Positions 3,730 through 17,796 of a DNA stretch of 20,601 bases are shown here, one piece after another. The notes beneath the pieces are model-generated. The model was not told the DNA's origin. It did no database searches and saw only the letters and a list, made by a program, of their open reading frames with translations. Numbering within the stretch: the first letter of the stretch is position 1; each line of letters starts with the position of its first letter. The stretch is from a virus, in IMG/VR virus record IMGVR_UViG_3300013117_000058, positions 1 through 20,601 of that record; one strand, 5' to 3'. The position numbers were made by a program, and so were the translations under genes.

Positions 3730-3939
3730 ATGGTCTCATATATCGATACTCCATTAGATGTAGATAGTTACTTCCTGAAAGTCTACTGCGATCCGACCCG
3801 GGACGTTGACCGGAGCGCAAGAAACTATAGAGGCTGGAATAGTACCTGCATCAAGGCAACCAGATGGGCCGGGCCAGACGTAACCTGCCTGGATTGCCCA
3901 CTAAAAGAGTGTGTTTATCAAAGGAGTAAATATGGCTGA
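3730..3939 (+). CDS. Small cysteine-rich protein upstream of the replication initiator
   Basis: 69 residues, with GAAGGAG ahead of ATG 3730. The C-terminal half contains four to five cysteines in a pattern C-x13-C-x2-C-x4-C (TCLDCPLKECVY) that could bind a metal ion. Its last codons hold the AAGGAG site of the initiator gene, and the two genes overlap by eight bases, so co-translation is likely. I do not recognise a named family. It may be a replication accessory or small zinc-binding protein, by position only. Confidence 0.6.
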   Translation: MVSYIDTPLDVDSYFLKVYCDPTRDVDRSARNYRGWNSTCIKATRWAGPDVTCLDCPLKECVYQRSKYG

Positions 3940-4750
3940 CCCGCAACCGGAAGATGCACACCTGAGAGTAGCGCACAGCATCAACGAAGCTATAATGCTA
4001 AGGGACTTCTCCAAGCGCCAGCGGAAGATACTGGACCTTATCCTCCGGCTGTCCTGGGGCTGTGGCAAGAAGACCGCTATCATAACGCGGCAGAAGGACT
4101 TTGCCGTTGTAGGGGTGGGTGAAGGGCATATCAAGGCAGAGGTTATATGGTTATTACAGAGCAAGATTATTTTTATAGAAGGTAATGAGTACCGGTTTAA
4201 CAAGAATTTTGATGATTGGCAAATATCAAGAGTCCATCCCTTTGAACCGGAAAAACTTACCGAAATGGTAAGATTAAACCTTATTAAAACTTACCAAAAC
4301 GGTAAGATTATTGGTACGGAACTTACCGAAACAGTAAGTTCCAACTTACCGAAACAGGAAGAAAGTACTTACCGAAACGGTAAGTTTCTTGAGCCTGAGT
4401 TAGCCTCGCCTAAAGAAATATTAAAGAAATATATAAATAAAGAGGAACCAGATAATAATATTAATAATAATTACGAAAACAGAGAAATGGCTGAAAAGAT
4501 ATGGAGTGACGTGTTGGTGAAAATCAAGGGCCATGTCAGCAAGCCAAATTACAATACCTGGTTTAGCAGGACGGTAGGGTTGTCGTGCGAGGATGGTGTT
4601 TTTAAGGTGCTGGCTCCCGCGACAGTTATTGACCACATAATGGGGAATATGTGCTCGATGGTGGAGATGTATATTATCGAGGTGGCCGGGGAAAGGATGA
4701 AAGTCCGTTTATACCCATTACAGGTTACTGGTCCAGAAGAGCCGCCGTAG
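3932..4750 (+). CDS. Phage replication initiator: lambda-O-type N-terminal domain fused to DnaA domain I-like C-terminus
   Basis: 272 residues from ATG 3932, chosen over an upstream ATG (3911) because AAGGAG lies at 3921-3926. Residues 4-97 match the replication protein O N-terminal domain: PQPEDAHLRVAHSINEAIM, then a winged-helix segment with SKRQRKILDLILRLSWGCGK. That domain binds origin iterons. Residues 98-186 are a low-complexity linker whose DNA contains the iterons and AT-rich block. Residues 187-262 match DnaA domain I: IWSDVLVKIKGHVSKPNYNTW, with W191 and W210 spaced 19 apart as W6 and W25 are in E. coli DnaA. In DnaA this domain contacts DnaB helicase and DiaA-like partners; here it may recruit the host helicase. 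No phage helicase is seen in the window. Confidence 0.8.
   Translation: MADPQPEDAHLRVAHSINEAIMLRDFSKRQRKILDLILRLSWGCGKKTAIITRQKDFAVVGVGEGHIKAEVIWLLQSKIIFIEGNEYRFNKNFDDWQISRVHPFEPEKLTEMVRLNLIKTYQNGKIIGTELTETVSSNLPKQEESTYRNGKFLEPELASPKEILKKYINKEEPDNNINNNYENREMAEKIWSDVLVKIKGHVSKPNYNTWFSRTVGLSCEDGVFKVLAPATVIDHIMGNMCSMVEMYIIEVAGERMKVRLYPLQVTGPEEPP
4256..4384. repeat. Five palindromic 17-bp iterons (replication origin)
   Basis: Copies of CTTACCGAAACGGTAAG or close variants occur at 4256-4272, 4290-4306, 4322-4338, 4345-4361 and 4368-4384. Start-to-start spacings are 34, 32, 23 and 23 bases, about three and two helical turns. Each is a CTTAC/GTAAG dyad except the fourth, whose right arm is GGAAG. 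The third extends to a 9-bp perfect inverted repeat (4318-4342). The copies are read in all three frames of the gene (LTEMV, TYQNGK, LTETV, NLPKQ, TYRNGK), so the repeat is selected as DNA, not as protein. Confidence 0.9.
4411..4488. other. AT-rich candidate DNA unwinding element of the origin
   Basis: Immediately after the iterons the coding sequence becomes extremely A/T-rich, with runs such as ATATATAAATAA and AATAATATTAATAATAATTA (within 4430-4473), encoding a lysine/asparagine-rich linker. Lambda has the same order: iterons then an AT-rich region inside the O gene. Together with the iterons this defines a likely origin at about 4256-4488. Confidence 0.7.
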
Positions 4751-10103: not shown

Positions 10104-10241
10104 ATGAAAAAGCTGACGATGGCAGAAGTAGACAAGATGATATTTAAGCGGTTAGAAAGAGCCGATAGAGGGAAATTAGGGGATTTGGTACGGCAGGCAT
10201 TAAAAAAGTTTAAGGGGACAGGTAGACAAGATGACATTTAA
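10104..10241 (+). CDS. 45-residue protein sharing its core with the giant protein's N-terminus
   Basis: Starts MKKLTMAEVDKMIFKRLERA and ends with a basic helix (LVRQALKKFKGTGRQ). A GAGGTAGC ribosome binding site precedes ATG 10104. Residues 12-22 (MIFKRLERADR) match residues 1-11 of the 2521-residue protein (MTFKRLERADR) because a 42-bp DNA segment is duplicated. It overlaps the giant gene by 11 bases. Function unknown; a shared targeting or assembly helix is possible. Confidence 0.5.
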   Translation: MKKLTMAEVDKMIFKRLERADRGKLGDLVRQALKKFKGTGRQDDI

Positions 10242-10263
10242 GCGGTTAGAAAGAGCCGATAGA
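10128..10263. repeat. 42-bp direct repeat at the start of the giant gene
   Basis: Bases 10128-10169 and 10222-10263 are identical except for one position (T at 10141, C at 10235). The offset is 94 bases. Both copies are read in the same phase relative to the repeat, by two different, overlapping genes, and the second copy provides the giant gene's ATG. Confidence 0.9.
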
Positions 10264-13200
10264 ATGAAGTGGCACCCGATGGATATTATCGCTCGTCCTA
10301 AAAGGCGAGAAATTAATATTGACGAGTATCCCGACCTTCTGAGAAGACAGATAGAGGAATTAGAGGGAAAAGGTTTGTGGAGCGATTTTGAAAACCTTGT
10401 TCGTGACGAGATACCACAGCCGAAACTTATACCACCTGAAACGCTGCATACCGAAGGGATAGAGCTTGACGCAGGTGTTCAATTAGAGGCAGGTGTAAGC
10501 AAAGCCGGTGAACTTCCCCCCATTACCCTGATTGACAACGGCAACAGACTCATTCTTGACTATGAGACAGGCGAGTTTAGAGAAGCTAGCCAGTCAGAAT
10601 ATGAGATGTGGGAATTATTCTACCGTGATTTTCCTTCAATCAAGCCGGGTACTCCTGGCGAGATGACATTGGTTGAAGGGGTAACACCAGAGAAGATACA
10701 AGAGAGGCAATATGGTATTGGCGGAGATATTGAGGCTGTTGATGCTATGGAAGCAGCAAGGTGGCAGGCACAGCAAGGTTGGGACATAGGGCAGGACCTA
10801 GCTTATATTCAAGCAGGTCAAGAATACCAGATGGATATGGAAACAGCTATTAAAGGTCTGTATCCCGATACCAATTACGATAACTTTGCCAGATTTGTAG
10901 AGAATCATCCAGACCAGTTCGTTCAGGACATCATGGACAAGGGACGGACACCTGAGACGGAGGCATTGTTAAGTGCTATAGGAGTAAGTCCTGCTGAGGT
11001 TTATGGTGTCGAGCCTGCCGATGTCCCTTATGAAAAGTTACCCGGACAATTTACGGAAGGGGAACACAAGGAATATTACGAATCTCAGGTAAGGAATATC
11101 CGGTCACTTTATCCCCAACCTCCTTATACAAGGGAACAGATGAAGACTGACTGGTATAAAGAGATGCGGGCGGAGGAGACTAAGGCATGGGAAGATTATC
11201 AGGAGACATTACCAGGCTTTGAGGAAAGTTTTGTCGGTCAAGTCTTCGAGGCTTTTGATAACGTATTTGCCTTACTGGGGCTATCTACCAGAAGTATGTT
11301 TACTGATTCCGTTGGTGTGAAAGCCCCTGAATTGGGCGATTATTACCAGCAACTTAAAGAAGGCAAGATAACACGTACCGAATACCTACAGAAGGTAGAA
11401 CAATGGCATGGACGTGCAACTGAAGTAAAAGAACAGTTTAGAGAATTGCCTTTGTGGGAACAATTACTGTGGGAAGGCCCTGCTATAATTATTGATATGT
11501 TTCCATCAATGGCTACATTATCTTTAAGAGGCGTTACCTCATTACAAGCCAAGATGTATGAAATCCTGTTGAATAAAGGACTCGACCAGTTAATAGCGAA
11601 GATGAGTAGAGGTGTTCAACCTGCAAGAAATCCCGCACTACAGAGAGCACTTTATAGACTATTCAAGGGTGACAGGGCGGAAGTGGCTGAAAGAGCTACC
11701 AATAACTGGCTTAGACGCATGGGGAAAGACCCTAACAATACGAAGATAATGAAAGAAGCAGTAGAAGAAACTATGGAGGAGTTGGAGACTTTACTTCTAC
11801 CTGCTGTCACTCCGGGCGGTACGGCAGTCCCAGGTCAAGTAAAACCCCTAGCCGAACTGATTAAGGCAGCGGAAGGCGTACCGAAAGTTACCGAAGCAGT
11901 AGTCCCTGAGACAGCAAGGGCTTTGGCTGGTGTGGAAGCTAGGTTGAAGAGAGGGCTTCTAAGTGCTCAACAGATATCTGATTTTAGGGTGGGTACTGAT
12001 AAAGTTGTACGTGAGGGTGGCAAAACATATGTAGTAGATACTGAGGGTATTCGTGCGAAAATACAAGTACAGTCTGATATATTGACTCCTGATGTTGTAG
12101 CAAATATTAACAAGTTAAGTCCTGAACAAAAGACTAAGATGTTAGAAGCTGTTCAGTCTACGCCTTACCTTTCAGATGAGGGGCGTGCTGAAAGATTAGC
12201 ATTATTGAAAGAACCTACTCCTCCAAAAGTCACACCAGAAGTCCTTGTTAAGCCACTTGCTGAAAAGCCCACTCCCAAAGAGGTTACAAAAGAACCATGG
12301 GAAATGACGAGAGAGGAATGGATAAAAGAAGGTAGGGGTAATCCTGAACTTCATAAATTGATTGTGGAGGAGAAATTAAAATCTCAAACACCACGAACTA
12401 GAAATGTTGTACCGCCCGAAGTATTAAAAGACTATCCTGATTTAGTAAAACCTACTGCAACCGCAGAGGATATTACTGCAGCAGTAGTCCCTGAGACAGC
12501 AAGGGCTGTAACGGGGGTAAAGGCTGAGTTGGGTGGTGAAATAAATGCAACATTACGTGAAATAAATGCAACATTACCTGAAGGTTGGCGTATAGAGATT
12601 GGTGAAATTAGAATCAAGCCTGGGATGGAGGAAGTCGCAACAGGTAAGGCAATGGTAGATTGGCTAAGAAAGGTAATTGTTGTTCGTGATGCTAATGTAA
12701 TGCGTGATAACGCTGTTATAAATGAGGAAATAGCACATGTAAGACTTGAAGAACTACCTAGTGAAACAATGAAGGCAGCAATAAGTGAATATGAAGTGGC
12801 TGCCAAGTATGAACCTATAGAAATTAGAAGTCAATATGCTAGACGTGAAGGTTTTGGGGGTGATTACGGTAAGTATCTTACAGACCCTTCAAACGTAAGT
12901 CCTGAGATTGCCTCTGTATTTAGAAAGTATTTCCCTACCAAGCCAGTACCCGAAGTCTTAAAGGACTACCCCGATTTACAAACCAAAGCTGAAGTAGAGG
13001 AAGTGGTTAAAGAACCACCTATTGAGGCTATGGAGGAGTACCCTGATATTACAGGGGCAGATGATCTTACTATATCAGCACGGCAAGCAGGTATAGATGC
13101 TTTTATGGATGATGCCAGTCAGGAAGATATGGTTGCTTCTGCTAAGACAGCTTTAAACGCACAGTCTGAGGCTGCCAACCTTCCACCTCCTAATATACCA

Positions 13201-16200
13201 CCTGCGAGAGTAGGACATATTGGTAGTGGTGGCAAGAATCCCGAAAATGCCCTCTATGATATGACCAATAGAATCATCCACGGAGAAGATGCTGGAAGGG
13301 CTGCTGTTAGAATATGGTCGGGTACTAGAAAAAGGATGGCTACCGAAGCTATATCATGGTGGAAGAAGGGCAATGAAACGCTTAAAAATATGGGGTTAGG
13401 TACTACTGAGGGGATTAATCAAAGGCTAACTAAAGAAGACAGTTACGATTTATTCAAAGCCCTGCACGGTGAAGGCAAAGTCCCTAAGAATCTAAAACCA
13501 GTTTATGATGATTTGAAGAAGATGCTCGACCAGGAGGCTTCAGATATGCTGGCATTCGACCCTAGTTTCTCAAGGGTAATGATGGCACATCCTGATTACT
13601 TCCCTAGAGGCTGGAAACCCCCCAAGGCAGAACAAGCGGGTAAATATAAGTTAGGTGCTAAACCGGGCTTTCTTAAACCGAGAGTAGACGCCACATTCAC
13701 AGAAATGGTCGAAGCTGGATGGGAACCTATATCATGGAATCCCTACGATATGGCAGCTTTAAGACGTGTTGCCGGTACTGAATACAGAGAGGGATGTATC
13801 CTGATTGACAGGTTGAAAACATTTGGCAAGGCTATTAATGAGAATGATGCACCGAGAGAGGGGTGGAGAGTTCCTAAAGTTGGTCCCGCATTTGAAGGCA
13901 AACCCTATGTCAGTACCGATGGCAAAGCCTACATGACACCTAAAGTAGCCGTGCCGAATAGAATTGCGGATATACTCGAAAGTACCTATGGGGTAGAGAT
14001 AGAGTTCCGTATCGCAGGCGTTAATGTATTTGGAGCGTTAAACGCCTTTGGTGCTTTTACAAAAAGAGCAAAGTTGTTCGGTTCTTTATTTCAGCACTGT
14101 GATTTCTTGACCAGAGATTATATAACAACGTTTACGCCTGAAGGAATAAGACATGGTGAGCCTTTAAAGTTTCCCGCACTGGCGGCTAAGGTTACATGGT
14201 CGGCACTTAGTCCTACTCATAGAGCTAATTTGGAAGCTCGTATTTTGTCAGGTGAGCCATTATATGAAGACTCTACTATAACACTCAAGATGATAGCTGA
14301 TTCAGGTTGGGAATTAGGTGCGGATGAAATGCTTATCCGCAGAGACGTGAGAGAGCAACTTGAATCAATAGTAAAGGAAACTAAGGGGTGGAAAACCTTT
14401 AAACCGATTGCAAATCGTTTAGATAGTATAGCTAAATTCTTTGAGGCAGGTTTATTCGATGGCGTATATAGAGAATCACAGGCGTATGCACTGGAGCACG
14501 TTATAGTACCGAGATTAAAAAGACTTCATCCAACATGGACTGACGAACAAATAGCAGGATCGGCTGCCGAGGAGGTAAATAAACAATTCAGTACATTACC
14601 TGTATGGCAGAGTGCATTACAACAGCCGGCAGTCAGAGCCATAGCAAGGACATTAATCTTCAGTTCAAACGAAACAGAGTCGTGGATAAGACAAGCTACC
14701 AGCGCAGTTAAAGGAGAGAATAAGCTATATTGGCAAGAATATGCAATATCTACCTTTGTTTCACTTGCTATAGCTGCTAACGCAATCAACCTTATATCTG
14801 AAGGCGAACCCTTACCGCCTGATAGATACTTACCGATAAAGCTTCATAGTCCTTATAGTCATATGCCCTGGGGTATAGCTTATAATGATAAATTCCTGTC
14901 ACCGCGACTACCCTGGAATGGTAGAAATGGTCAACCTATATACCTCGATATAGTGGGACAGGCTGATACATACCTTAGATGGATTCTTGACCCTGCTGGT
15001 GCTCTAACTGCCAGATATAATGTACTACCCAGAGCAGTAATGAATCAGATACAGGGGCGTGATTTCTGGGGTAGAGAACTAGAAAATATGGGAGAACGGT
15101 CAAGGCAGGCGGTTAATGACCTCTTTATGCCTATAGGTTTTGGCAATCTGGTGGAAGCGGGCAGGCTTATGTGGCCTGTAGTTGGCAATGTTATACCGGA
15201 ACAAGAGGGTAGAATAGGTATTGTAGGCTCACTAATACAGGCAACTGGTTTGAATGTGCGGTCTATAAAGACCAGGGATATGCTTGATAAGTATGCAAGG
15301 GAAAGTGGGCTAAAAAAGGCGGATGGCACACCGGTTACTCAGTGGTCAGACTTAGAACCTGCACAAAAGAAAAACTTTGGGAACAATACCGAACTACAGG
15401 AAGAAATGGGGTTGCGGGGAGATACAGCAGTAGAACGGAAGTACCCCGGTGCTAAAGCATTCGCCATACTCGATGAGTTAGACCAAGAGAGGATAACACG
15501 CGGTGATGCTTTAGTATCTGAGCTTGTAAGTGATTTGATTGGTGAGGAACGGGCAGAAGGCTTTGAATTCTCCAGGAGTTTCAGAGACGAAGTTACTAAA
15601 CTCAAAAGAGAAATAGCCAACAGAAAGTCACAGGTTGATAGGGACTTTGAGTTATTCAAGGATACGGGAAAACTACCGGAGGACCTCAATAAAAGAGCAT
15701 TAGTTGAATATTATAATATGTTCGATGAGTCAAAAAGACCATCCGGTGCTATTGATTGGGAATTCTTAAATCAGAAAGAGGAAGACCTGCGGAAAAAGTG
15801 GACACCTGAGCAAGAAGCCTTTGTAGACAGGAATACCGGGCTTACAGAGTGGGGTCCGTTGATGAAGGAATACATAGACAATCAAAAGGTGCTCAATGAT
15901 TCGGGCTATTGGGATGAAGAGGAACGGGACAGAAAGGCAATGCGTTACTTGAAGCCGGAAATTGAGGACATTCTCACCGGCAAGTTCTATAATTATAAAC
16001 CAATTTCTAAGGAATCTGAGAAATTAGGGCTTAAATGGCAAGATGTCTATAGGCAGATAGATACCTTTAAAGAGAAATATAACGAGATGTCAGATAGTGA
16101 CATTAATAACATTGTTCCCCCTGAAGGTATTTCCCAAGAACTGTGGAATAACATGAGCGTTAAAAACAAAAAAGGCGCTCTACTTGATATCTATAAAGAA

Positions 16201-17796
16201 TCATTATATGAGATAAACCCTGGCTTTTGGGAAGACGATAGAAAGAAATCCGCTTGGAGTACTATCGGTGACAAATTAAACTATAAGCATGGTGAGATAG
16301 TTGCCAATGAATTTGTGGAATACAGCAGAGCCGTAAAAGAACACGGAGCTAATAGCTGGCAGGCTTTACTTTACCGATACCGGAGTACAAAGTTAAATGC
16401 CTTTGGTATACAGGAGGGTACGTTTTCTACTGATGGATGGCATGAGTTAGATACTAGCCAAGTGCCAGTCTGGGAAATAAAAGAGACGTGGAATACCTTA
16501 ATTGAAGAAAGAGAAGCGTGGAAAGACCCTGACTCTGGCCCTGACATTTTTATTGCTGATGATGAGACAATGATACACCCTGAGACGGGTGAGACAGTCA
16601 ATAAAAGACGCTATACGTATGATAAACAATATAAAGATAACCCTGAGTATCGGGATGCCATGAGCAGAATGCAGGTGTATCAGTGGGGCAATGATACTGA
16701 GACGATGTTGAACGCCCATGTTGGATATAACCATGTAGTTGATGAATTCGGTGGTAACAGCCCGGAAGCTTACCTGCACCGATTCAAACATACTGATTAC
16801 AATAACTTCCGTACAAATAAAGATATTCCTGGTATGGAGGTACTCCAACCATTAGACGAAAAGAAAGTGCCATTGTGGGAATTGAAAGTGCAATGGAAAG
16901 AGGAGGAGGATTATTACGACAATAAAATACCGGAATTGTTTGCCGATATAAAGGATGAGGACAAACGCAATAAAGCTATACGGGAAAGGAGAGCACGTGA
17001 GTTGTCTACTAACGAGGATTACCGTAAGGGCAGGCGTGCTATAGAAGGCCTTGAAAAGGGTATATCAAGCAAATATATAGAGGATTATGTATCTCATTAT
17101 GAATTACCAACGAAGGGTTACGCTAGAGAACATAACTTAATTAAGAATATACATTTGGCAAACGAGATGAGGGATGCAGGGATTATCACAGAGATAACCC
17201 CTGCTAACGAATTGCCCGACCCAGAATATGACAGACTATACGCTGATAACAAAAACCGAATTGACGAGTTAGACGATATGACCGGGGACGAAAGGGATAG
17301 CGAACTTAAAAAGGATGTAAACCGTAATCTTGCTATGGTGTATTACAAGAGACAGGCTTACAAGGAGTTTATCCCCAAAGAGCACGTAACCGAATATGCC
17401 GAATATATGTATAAGTACGGGCTCCATAGTAAGCCTGATGATTGGCCGCCCGATGATAGGTGGTGGGAGCCTTACTGGTATCTGGATGAGCATAGGGGTT
17501 TATATAAGGCTATCAAGGAATCGAGGGAGTGGGAAGCAAAGGACTTTCGCAATATGCCGCCCCGGGAAGTGTGGAAACTGTACCTGGAGTATCTTGAAGA
17601 GCCTGACTACAACAAAAAGCAATTCAGGGCTGATAACAGGGACTTGGACGTGTGGGGACAAGGGGCTAAAAGCTGGGCCCCTATTGAGGACTGGGTAAGA
17701 CGCCAGGAGGAAAAGCACGGACTTCACGGGGAGAAACCGGAAGTGCCGGATTGGAAAAAGATGATTGAAGAGTGGCACAGAGCCGGTGTGAGATGA
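10231..17796 (+). CDS. Giant 2521-residue phage 'polyvalent'/internal virion protein
   Basis: Unbroken frame between portal and scaffold genes. ATG 10231 is used; ATG 10264 is an alternative. Visible architecture: acidic N-terminus (1-400); hydrophobic patch 411-430; helical and linker region with repeated AVVPETARA (556, 751) and (D/E)YPD(L/I) motifs (33, 735, 913, 937). A possible metallopeptidase-like domain spans 780-890 with EEIAH at 832-836 in place of HExxH. The core resembles LPD38-type polyvalent proteins (about 1010-1560), with HPDYFPRGW (1120-1128), a FLTRDYI block (1292-1298) and a hydrophobic helix 1503-1522. Long charged coiled-coil helices follow (1640-1980), then three repeat units starting at 1996, 2137 and 2261. 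Proteins of this kind are often packaged and injected with DNA; enzymatic activity here is unproven. Confidence 0.75.
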   Translation: MTFKRLERADRMKWHPMDIIARPKRREINIDEYPDLLRRQIEELEGKGLWSDFENLVRDEIPQPKLIPPETLHTEGIELDAGVQLEAGVSKAGELPPITLIDNGNRLILDYETGEFREASQSEYEMWELFYRDFPSIKPGTPGEMTLVEGVTPEKIQERQYGIGGDIEAVDAMEAARWQAQQGWDIGQDLAYIQAGQEYQMDMETAIKGLYPDTNYDNFARFVENHPDQFVQDIMDKGRTPETEALLSAIGVSPAEVYGVEPADVPYEKLPGQFTEGEHKEYYESQVRNIRSLYPQPPYTREQMKTDWYKEMRAEETKAWEDYQETLPGFEESFVGQVFEAFDNVFALLGLSTRSMFTDSVGVKAPELGDYYQQLKEGKITRTEYLQKVEQWHGRATEVKEQFRELPLWEQLLWEGPAIIIDMFPSMATLSLRGVTSLQAKMYEILLNKGLDQLIAKMSRGVQPARNPALQRALYRLFKGDRAEVAERATNNWLRRMGKDPNNTKIMKEAVEETMEELETLLLPAVTPGGTAVPGQVKPLAELIKAAEGVPKVTEAVVPETARALAGVEARLKRGLLSAQQISDFRVGTDKVVREGGKTYVVDTEGIRAKIQVQSDILTPDVVANINKLSPEQKTKMLEAVQSTPYLSDEGRAERLALLKEPTPPKVTPEVLVKPLAEKPTPKEVTKEPWEMTREEWIKEGRGNPELHKLIVEEKLKSQTPRTRNVVPPEVLKDYPDLVKPTATAEDITAAVVPETARAVTGVKAELGGEINATLREINATLPEGWRIEIGEIRIKPGMEEVATGKAMVDWLRKVIVVRDANVMRDNAVINEEIAHVRLEELPSETMKAAISEYEVAAKYEPIEIRSQYARREGFGGDYGKYLTDPSNVSPEIASVFRKYFPTKPVPEVLKDYPDLQTKAEVEEVVKEPPIEAMEEYPDITGADDLTISARQAGIDAFMDDASQEDMVASAKTALNAQSEAANLPPPNIPPARVGHIGSGGKNPENALYDMTNRIIHGEDAGRAAVRIWSGTRKRMATEAISWWKKGNETLKNMGLGTTEGINQRLTKEDSYDLFKALHGEGKVPKNLKPVYDDLKKMLDQEASDMLAFDPSFSRVMMAHPDYFPRGWKPPKAEQAGKYKLGAKPGFLKPRVDATFTEMVEAGWEPISWNPYDMAALRRVAGTEYREGCILIDRLKTFGKAINENDAPREGWRVPKVGPAFEGKPYVSTDGKAYMTPKVAVPNRIADILESTYGVEIEFRIAGVNVFGALNAFGAFTKRAKLFGSLFQHCDFLTRDYITTFTPEGIRHGEPLKFPALAAKVTWSALSPTHRANLEARILSGEPLYEDSTITLKMIADSGWELGADEMLIRRDVREQLESIVKETKGWKTFKPIANRLDSIAKFFEAGLFDGVYRESQAYALEHVIVPRLKRLHPTWTDEQIAGSAAEEVNKQFSTLPVWQSALQQPAVRAIARTLIFSSNETESWIRQATSAVKGENKLYWQEYAISTFVSLAIAANAINLISEGEPLPPDRYLPIKLHSPYSHMPWGIAYNDKFLSPRLPWNGRNGQPIYLDIVGQADTYLRWILDPAGALTARYNVLPRAVMNQIQGRDFWGRELENMGERSRQAVNDLFMPIGFGNLVEAGRLMWPVVGNVIPEQEGRIGIVGSLIQATGLNVRSIKTRDMLDKYARESGLKKADGTPVTQWSDLEPAQKKNFGNNTELQEEMGLRGDTAVERKYPGAKAFAILDELDQERITRGDALVSELVSDLIGEERAEGFEFSRSFRDEVTKLKREIANRKSQVDRDFELFKDTGKLPEDLNKRALVEYYNMFDESKRPSGAIDWEFLNQKEEDLRKKWTPEQEAFVDRNTGLTEWGPLMKEYIDNQKVLNDSGYWDEEERDRKAMRYLKPEIEDILTGKFYNYKPISKESEKLGLKWQDVYRQIDTFKEKYNEMSDSDINNIVPPEGISQELWNNMSVKNKKGALLDIYKESLYEINPGFWEDDRKKSAWSTIGDKLNYKHGEIVANEFVEYSRAVKEHGANSWQALLYRYRSTKLNAFGIQEGTFSTDGWHELDTSQVPVWEIKETWNTLIEEREAWKDPDSGPDIFIADDETMIHPETGETVNKRRYTYDKQYKDNPEYRDAMSRMQVYQWGNDTETMLNAHVGYNHVVDEFGGNSPEAYLHRFKHTDYNNFRTNKDIPGMEVLQPLDEKKVPLWELKVQWKEEEDYYDNKIPELFADIKDEDKRNKAIRERRARELSTNEDYRKGRRAIEGLEKGISSKYIEDYVSHYELPTKGYAREHNLIKNIHLANEMRDAGIITEITPANELPDPEYDRLYADNKNRIDELDDMTGDERDSELKKDVNRNLAMVYYKRQAYKEFIPKEHVTEYAEYMYKYGLHSKPDDWPPDDRWWEPYWYLDEHRGLYKAIKESREWEAKDFRNMPPREVWKLYLEYLEEPDYNKKQFRADNRDLDVWGQGAKSWAPIEDWVRRQEEKHGLHGEKPEVPDWKKMIEEWHRAGVR
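11896..12507. repeat. 27-bp identical direct repeat inside the giant gene
   Basis: Bases 11896-11922 and 12481-12507 are identical and both encode AVVPETARA in the same frame (offset 585 bases). The following residues remain similar (LAGVEARL against VTGVKAEL), showing a short duplicated module in the linker region. Confidence 0.8.
12538..12579. repeat. 21-bp tandem repeat inside the giant gene
   Basis: Two adjacent 21-base units (12538-12558 and 12559-12579) differ at a single base and encode EINATLR and EINATLP. This is a recent slippage-type duplication at the start of the putative zincin-like segment. Confidence 0.85.

Follow-up and report, generated by a model that had tools for sequence, protein, structure and literature searches.

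A candidate lambda-type replication origin inside a phage initiator gene, with iterons that covary with three recognition-helix residues

Analysis of a 20.6-kb IMG/VR virus contig (hereafter the window, meaning the whole stretch of DNA analysed) points to a lambda-type replication origin at 4256-4481, inside the initiator gene, with a probability of roughly 0.93. The fuller account, in which the iterons of this in-gene origin are read by initiator residues 64-66, the DNA is melted and a DnaA domain I recruits the helicase, is considered very likely.

Iteron array and AT-rich stretch within the initiator gene

The features discussed below are the following.

3932..4750, + strand: initiator gene, 272 aa, comprising a Phage_rep_O winged helix, an iteron linker and a DnaA domain I (ORF; PF04492, PF11638)
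3950..4219, + strand: winged-helix DNA-binding domain, residues 7-96 (PF04492, E 1.6e-18; AlphaFold2)
4121..4159, + strand: recognition helix, residues 64-76 (helix in the AlphaFold2 model)
4121-4129, + strand: E64, G65 and H66, covarying with iteron bases n1, n4 and n5 (covariation)
4256..4272, + strand: iteron 1, CTTACCGAAATGGTAAG (17-bp site, pattern match)
4290..4306, + strand: iteron 2, CTTACCAAAACGGTAAG (17-bp site, pattern match)
4322..4338, + strand: iteron 3, CTTACCGAAACAGTAAG (17-bp site, pattern match)
4345..4361, + strand: iteron 4, CTTACCGAAACAGGAAG, the most degenerate of the five (17-bp site, pattern match)
4368..4384, + strand: iteron 5, CTTACCGAAACGGTAAG, near-palindromic (17-bp site, pattern match)
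4412..4481, + strand: AT-rich, A-strand-asymmetric stretch, candidate DNA unwinding element (AT content, A:T count)
4493..4711, + strand: DnaA domain I spanning residues 188-260, a candidate module for helicase recruitment (PF11638; phmmer and Foldseek to 4tps)
4556-4561, + strand: T209-W210, aligned with B. subtilis T26-W27 (alignment)

The iteron pattern CTTAC-N7-GTAAG (5+7+5) is matched six times in the whole window at up to three mismatches, compared to 0.08 matches expected, and six matches were reached in 0/100 window shuffles. All six lie inside the array, the sixth being the near-palindromic iteron 5 read on the other strand. The original prediction had described five 17-bp CTTAC...GTAAG palindromes spaced 34, 32, 23 and 23 bases apart between the two domains of the initiator, and these were found at 4256, 4290, 4322, 4345 and 4368, between the Phage_rep_O domain (residues 7-96) and a second domain that begins at residue 188. 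Relative to the reading frame the iterons have phases 0, 1, 0, 2 and 1, so that all three frames are in use, as had been claimed, and iterons 1-5 encode the peptides LTEMV, TYQNG, LTETV, LPKQE and TYRNG, respectively. When codons were resampled 5000 times from window usage with the protein held fixed, a mean of 0.23 and a maximum of 3 sites were obtained and five sites in 0/5000 trials, which strongly supports the earlier proposal that selection acts on the DNA.

AT content reaches its maximum of 87% at 4412-4471, and the coding strand is A-rich at 4412-4481 (43 A vs 16 T). The AT-rich stretch expected after the iterons is therefore present, although it does not follow them at once, as its peak begins ~28 bp past the last iteron. 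Elsewhere in the window, the structural gene region includes one ORF of 2521 aa (positions 10231-17796), for which Pfam gave nothing convincing (best E 0.0099).

In lambda (oriLambda/O), iterons similarly lie inside the initiator gene, past the DNA-binding domain (PMC4488673, PMC5043065). Both systems have the 5+7+5 geometry (lambda has the centre CAAAACG and four sites at 20/24/23 bp), a 3' AT-rich, A-asymmetric stretch and a Phage_rep_O-type initiator. Inverted repeats of this kind are bound in lambda by dimers of O, and unwinding depends on the AT-rich flank (PMC5043065, PMC4488673, PMC7466680). In contrast, lambda has the half-site TCCCT where the window has CTTAC, recognition-helix residues V-K-R where the window has E-G-H, and a partner, P, that delivers DnaB, with no DnaA domain I; a sequence search with lambda O returned no related solved structure. 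Thus, the window has the inverted-repeat sites 3' of the DNA-binding domain and the adjoining AT-rich, strand-asymmetric stretch of a lambda-type in-gene origin, but not the loader or own DnaB encoded alongside the initiator in the O-P type: neither PF03796 (DnaB_C helicase) nor PF01695 (IstB/DnaC loader) was matched in the window or in its sister contig, which at 20.6 kb and 27.7 kb may both be incomplete. Bacillus phage SPP1 (gp38/oriL) also has origin repeats and an AT-rich unwinding element inside its initiator gene (PMC6316719) but, unlike the window, separately encodes a helicase loader (gp39) and a helicase (gp40) of its own.

Domain architecture of the initiator

PF04492 matches the initiator at 67.4 bits, compared to a curated cut-off of 28.7, which places it in Phage_rep_O, and AlphaFold2 pLDDT exceeds 90 across most of the winged-helix domain. 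The second half had been described as different from that of lambda, with its identity left open; the difference holds, and the matches together identify this half, at the level of sequence and model, as a DnaA domain I. These are a PF11638 (DnaA_N) match from residue 188 that is barely above threshold (26.6 bits vs a cut-off of 24.6), a phmmer match to B. subtilis DnaA domain I (PDB 4tps, E 0.0011), and a Foldseek search with the AlphaFold2 model in which 4tps is the top hit (E 2.7e-4, TM 0.74 by target, with local pLDDT of ~60). The likeness to B. subtilis DnaA extends over fold, sequence and T26-W27. However, bacterial DnaA also has an AAA+ module and domain IV, whereas the window protein attaches domain I to a phage winged helix, and no Pfam match to an AAA+ ATPase or to the DnaA-box-binding domain IV was found in its 272 aa. 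The DnaD/DnaB_2 C-terminal domain (PF07261), which a Pfam scan found in 19 of 69 relatives, is absent from the window initiator.

Among the 69 proteins scanned, DnaA_N is present in the window and sister contig alone. Searches for DnaA_N in phage and plasmid records and 199 Bacillota genomes returned almost solely chromosomal dnaA or other HTH fusions, so that, at the sensitivity used, no other case of a fusion to Phage_rep_O was found. Two HTH + DnaA_N proteins from Paenibacillus and Terribacillus plasmids (WP_119851436 and WP_217324263) have a C-terminal DnaA domain I like that of the window, but their N-terminal regions look different by eye. At L206:1754-2740 (Paenibacillus lautus) and L207:1670-2749 (Terribacillus), plasmid proteins combine a C-terminal DnaA domain I with a different N-terminal region, and these fusions apparently arose independently.

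Related initiators and their in-gene arrays

When close relatives were sought with the full-length protein or with its second half, the sister contig was the single hit, and scanning genomes with one sequence gave no match; relatives were found with alignment queries, which yielded 67 viral and 18 genomic loci, with further loci from other queries. The relatives are phages and Bacillota prophages. For instance, Brevibacillus phage Jimmer1 and Geobacillus phage GBK2 (PHROG 16826, Bacillota O/DnaD-like initiators) have homologous winged helices, 41% and 34% identical, and in-gene arrays. The PHROG 16826 initiators differ from that of the window in a C-terminal half that is DnaD/DnaB_2-like or unassigned, in neighbouring genes for a DnaC-like loader or DnaB helicase, and in their half-sites (GTTAC, GTTGG).

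Palindromic arrays just past the winged-helix domain beat all 40 synonymous shuffles in 79 of the 86 loci first examined. The 60 non-redundant loci have mostly 4-7 sites, nearly always across two or three frames, and an A-tract lies on the coding strand at 292 of their 315 sites. Spacings between sites cluster at 23, 33, 44 and 54 bp, with a best period of ~10.8 bp (R 0.75, from non-independent observations). Such helical-turn steps imply that the sites recur on the same helix face. Additionally, in 49/60 loci the 60-mer with the highest AT content on the 3' side of the array exceeds the rest of the gene. Given the orientation, the helical phasing and an A-rich centre that is common to the relatives and also found in lambda, there is good support for a lambda-type origin. 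Nearly all relatives repeat the layout with sequences of their own, which agrees with the lambda-like, gene-embedded origin of the original prediction. The counter-example named there, a relative with the same protein and neither iterons nor substitutes, does not arise in the core family, the great majority of which carries substitute repeats.

The exceptions are a few distant members and one Brevibacillus clade. The distant members (e.g. L059-L071 and L103-L115) have other spacers or no detectable 5+7+5 array, and were excluded from the code or the tree described below. In the YRNVV clade (L076, L077, L080 and L117; Brevibacillus-type, helix GVYRNVVSEE) no clear A-centred 5+7+5 array was found past the winged-helix domain, and the origin may lie elsewhere or be of another form.

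Several individual loci vary in other ways. The sister contig (L002:222-992) matches window positions 3932-4750 exactly apart from an in-frame loss of 48 bp between iterons 2 and 4, which leaves three sites, one a hybrid, compared to five in the window. The deletion may be a natural variant or an assembly difference; since the rest of the gene is identical, iteron number may vary without breaking the protein. L015:759-1868 is the sole one of the 69 proteins scanned with a GIY-YIG-type domain (Pfam MUG113/T5orf172), inserted in the linker directly before the remaining iterons. A DNA-pattern scan with the window iteron returned two other contigs, a Paenibacillus-type phage with the window's site (L006/L039) and a lambda-O-like phage (L005). 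The Paenibacillus (pro)phage initiators of L085/L039 and L006 have nine CTTAC-type iterons, the same helix as the window (GVGEGHI) and another C-terminal half, and are predicted to match the window phage in origin specificity.

Covariation of recognition-helix residues and half-site bases

Half-sites among the relatives include CTTAC, CTTAG, CTTCC, CTTCT, CTTAT, GTTAC, GTTCC, GTTCT, GTTAT, GTTAG, GTTGG and a few more. In an unbiased scan of every winged-helix column against each half-site base, residue 64 ranked first for n1 (z 10.6, next 7.9), residue 65 for n4 (z 10.8, next 8.9) and residue 66 for n5 (z 24.7, next 11.2). In the AlphaFold2 model, these three residues make up the opening turn of the recognition helix. 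The alignment of relatives had been suggested as a check on whether iterons covary with the winged helix, and the outcome is positive, which lends indirect support to binding of the iterons by the initiator. Across 61 core loci, residue 66 pairs with n5 as D-G (12/12), N-T (13/13), K-C (4/4) and H-C (29/32), and residue 64 with n1 as K/R-G (32/32), while E occurs with C in 9 and with T in 2. Residue 66 is therefore predicted to set n5 (H or K giving C, N giving T, D giving G) and residue 64 to set n1 (K or R giving G; E, Q or Y mostly C), and residue 65 would set n4 in part, a looser link. These residue-base pairings match textbook side-chain contacts, provided that residue 66 reads the opposite strand.

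Shared descent was controlled for with a tree built without the contact columns, on which n5 changes ~11 times. No independent pair ran counter to the rule, and well-supported branches agreed in 5/5 cases for residue 66 H/K vs n5=C (p 0.06, from few pairs). For instance, L008, the window's sister in the tree and 72% identical to it outside the contact region, has D66 and CTTAG compared to H66 and CTTAC in the window, and L017 and L020 (88%) have N66/GTTCT and H66/GTTCC, respectively. A table learnt solely from loci with <60% identity over the remainder of the domain predicted n5 in 74/77, n1 in 61/67 and n4 in 52/78 cases, compared to 47/78, 47/78 and 14/78 for a majority guess and 31/78, 38/78 and 36/78 for the nearest remote neighbour.

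Two blind tests were also carried out. In the first, rules set beforehand served to predict half-sites at new loci whose arrays had yet to be read; canonical A-centred arrays agreed at n5 in 10/10, n1 in 9/9 and n4 in 7/10 cases, and three more loci with odd arrays also fitted n5. In the second, the frozen rules were applied to further loci, mostly Paenibacillaceae, and canonical arrays agreed at n5 in 17/17, n4 in 17/18 and n1 in 14/15 cases with the RIQDA clade, an exception noted earlier, excluded; the raw figures, which include that clade and array-less loci, are 17/22, 21/25 and 15/20. Together, unseen loci with canonical arrays, some of them akin to each other or to training loci, agreed at n5 in 27/27, n1 in 23/24 and n4 in 24/28 cases. 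For L211 the rules predicted the half-site CTTAT, which none of the earlier sets contained, and its array reads CTTATCAAAACGATAAG.

Two clades break the residue 66-n5 rule. The PATHI clade (L046, L047 and L051) has the half-site CTTCA, and the RIQDA clade (L083, L215, L217, L219 and L220) has GTTAC and GTTACGAAAAGTGTAAC with an altered centre. These clades may use another contact or register.

Proposed initiation mechanism and helicase recruitment

It is proposed that initiator dimers use the Phage_rep_O winged helix to bind the five iterons, with one monomer per 5-bp half-site and each dimer spanning the A-rich 7-bp centre. Residue 64 would read n1, residue 65 would influence n4, and residue 66 would read n5, probably through its opposite-strand partner. 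As the distances between iterons go up by roughly one helical turn at a time, the dimers are proposed to stack on one DNA face, where they would wrap the DNA and melt the adjoining AT-rich stretch. The C-terminal DnaA domain I would then recruit the host replicative helicase, either directly, as with E. coli DnaA, or via a DnaD-type loader, as in B. subtilis, and so replace the DnaB helicase or DnaC-type loader encoded by related phages.

DnaA domain I brings the helicase directly in E. coli and via DnaD in B. subtilis, where the loader contact requires DnaA T26, W27 and F49; the domain is also an oligomerisation and regulator-binding hub (PMC10201431). In the window, T26-W27 are kept as T209-W210, and the residue aligned with F49 is not conserved. 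Among 25 relatives checked, 23 carry a helicase or loader gene (a DnaB-type helicase in 12 and a DnaC/IstB-type loader in 11 others), and L014 and L056 have neither of these and no DnaA_N. A DnaC/IstB-type loader is present in 6/7 of the nearest relatives checked (L008, L009, L011, L013, L015 and L016), and in L008 its gene overlaps the end of the initiator gene. Downstream of the window initiator are small ORFs and a VRR_NUC gene, with no loader match. It is rather likely, on these comparisons, that DnaA domain I brings the host helicase to the origin, a step that is less certain than the origin itself because both contigs may be fragments and a helicase or loader could sit off-contig.

The same incompleteness lends some weight to an unlikely alternative, in which the in-gene origin is unchanged, a loader gene lies off-contig and DnaA domain I serves initiator self-assembly or binds host DnaA or a DnaA regulator, thereby coupling to or competing with host initiation. 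The hub function of the domain, the non-conserved F49 equivalent and the two relatives without helicase, loader or DnaA_N are consistent with such a role, but the loaders of the nearest relatives have no counterpart in the stretch downstream of the window initiator, and T209-W210 match the very residues of the B. subtilis loader contact.

Other readings of the repeats

Palindromes bound by a winged-helix protein could instead be operators for autorepression of the initiator gene or operon, with no origin present, and the covariation indicates recognition rather than replication. However, the array is in the middle of a coding sequence, it has 4-9 phased sites, its AT-rich, A-asymmetric flank is on a fixed side in 49/60 loci, the family is an initiator family and the same layout in lambda is an origin (PMC4488673, PMC5043065). 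The operator array was therefore rejected as very improbable. A repetitive coding linker or chance palindromes, with no DNA function, has a negligible probability and was rejected as refuted at the sequence level: inter-domain linkers are often repetitive, but these sites encode different peptides in three frames, synonymous resampling never reproduces five of them, their spacings follow the helical turn and not multiples of three, and half-sites track DNA-contact residues and not linker peptides.

Implications for phage origin specificity

That iteron origins can lie within the gene of a type-specific initiator has been known since lambda. The description of the window as a distinct ori-initiator pair was right, but understated, in that initiators with this binding half form a large family that is already known, and the distinctive part is the DnaA domain I half. 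In the literature searched, which included few subscription papers, no earlier account was found of residues that set specificity or of a Phage_rep_O/DnaA domain I fusion. It is reasonably probable that the residue 64/65/66 code predicts origin specificity in the family and that the window origin, its recruiting half exchanged for a host-type DnaA domain I, calls the host helicase without a phage loader.

Phage_rep_O initiators carry their binding sites inside their own genes; each genome thus records a matched protein-DNA pair, and as gene and sites travel together, many such natural pairs are available. If the three-residue code is true, phage origin specificity and compatibility would be predictable from sequence, and H66D, for instance, would shift the preference from CTTAC to CTTAG, i.e. 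from CTTACCGAAACGGTAAG towards CTTAGTGAAACACTAAG. With the code, candidate origins within initiator genes can also be located in many phages and prophages. Finally, judging from the DnaA domain I fusion, helicase recruitment may be a module that can be exchanged behind a common DNA-binding head, the module being DnaD-like, partnered with DnaC or DnaB, or a DnaA domain I.
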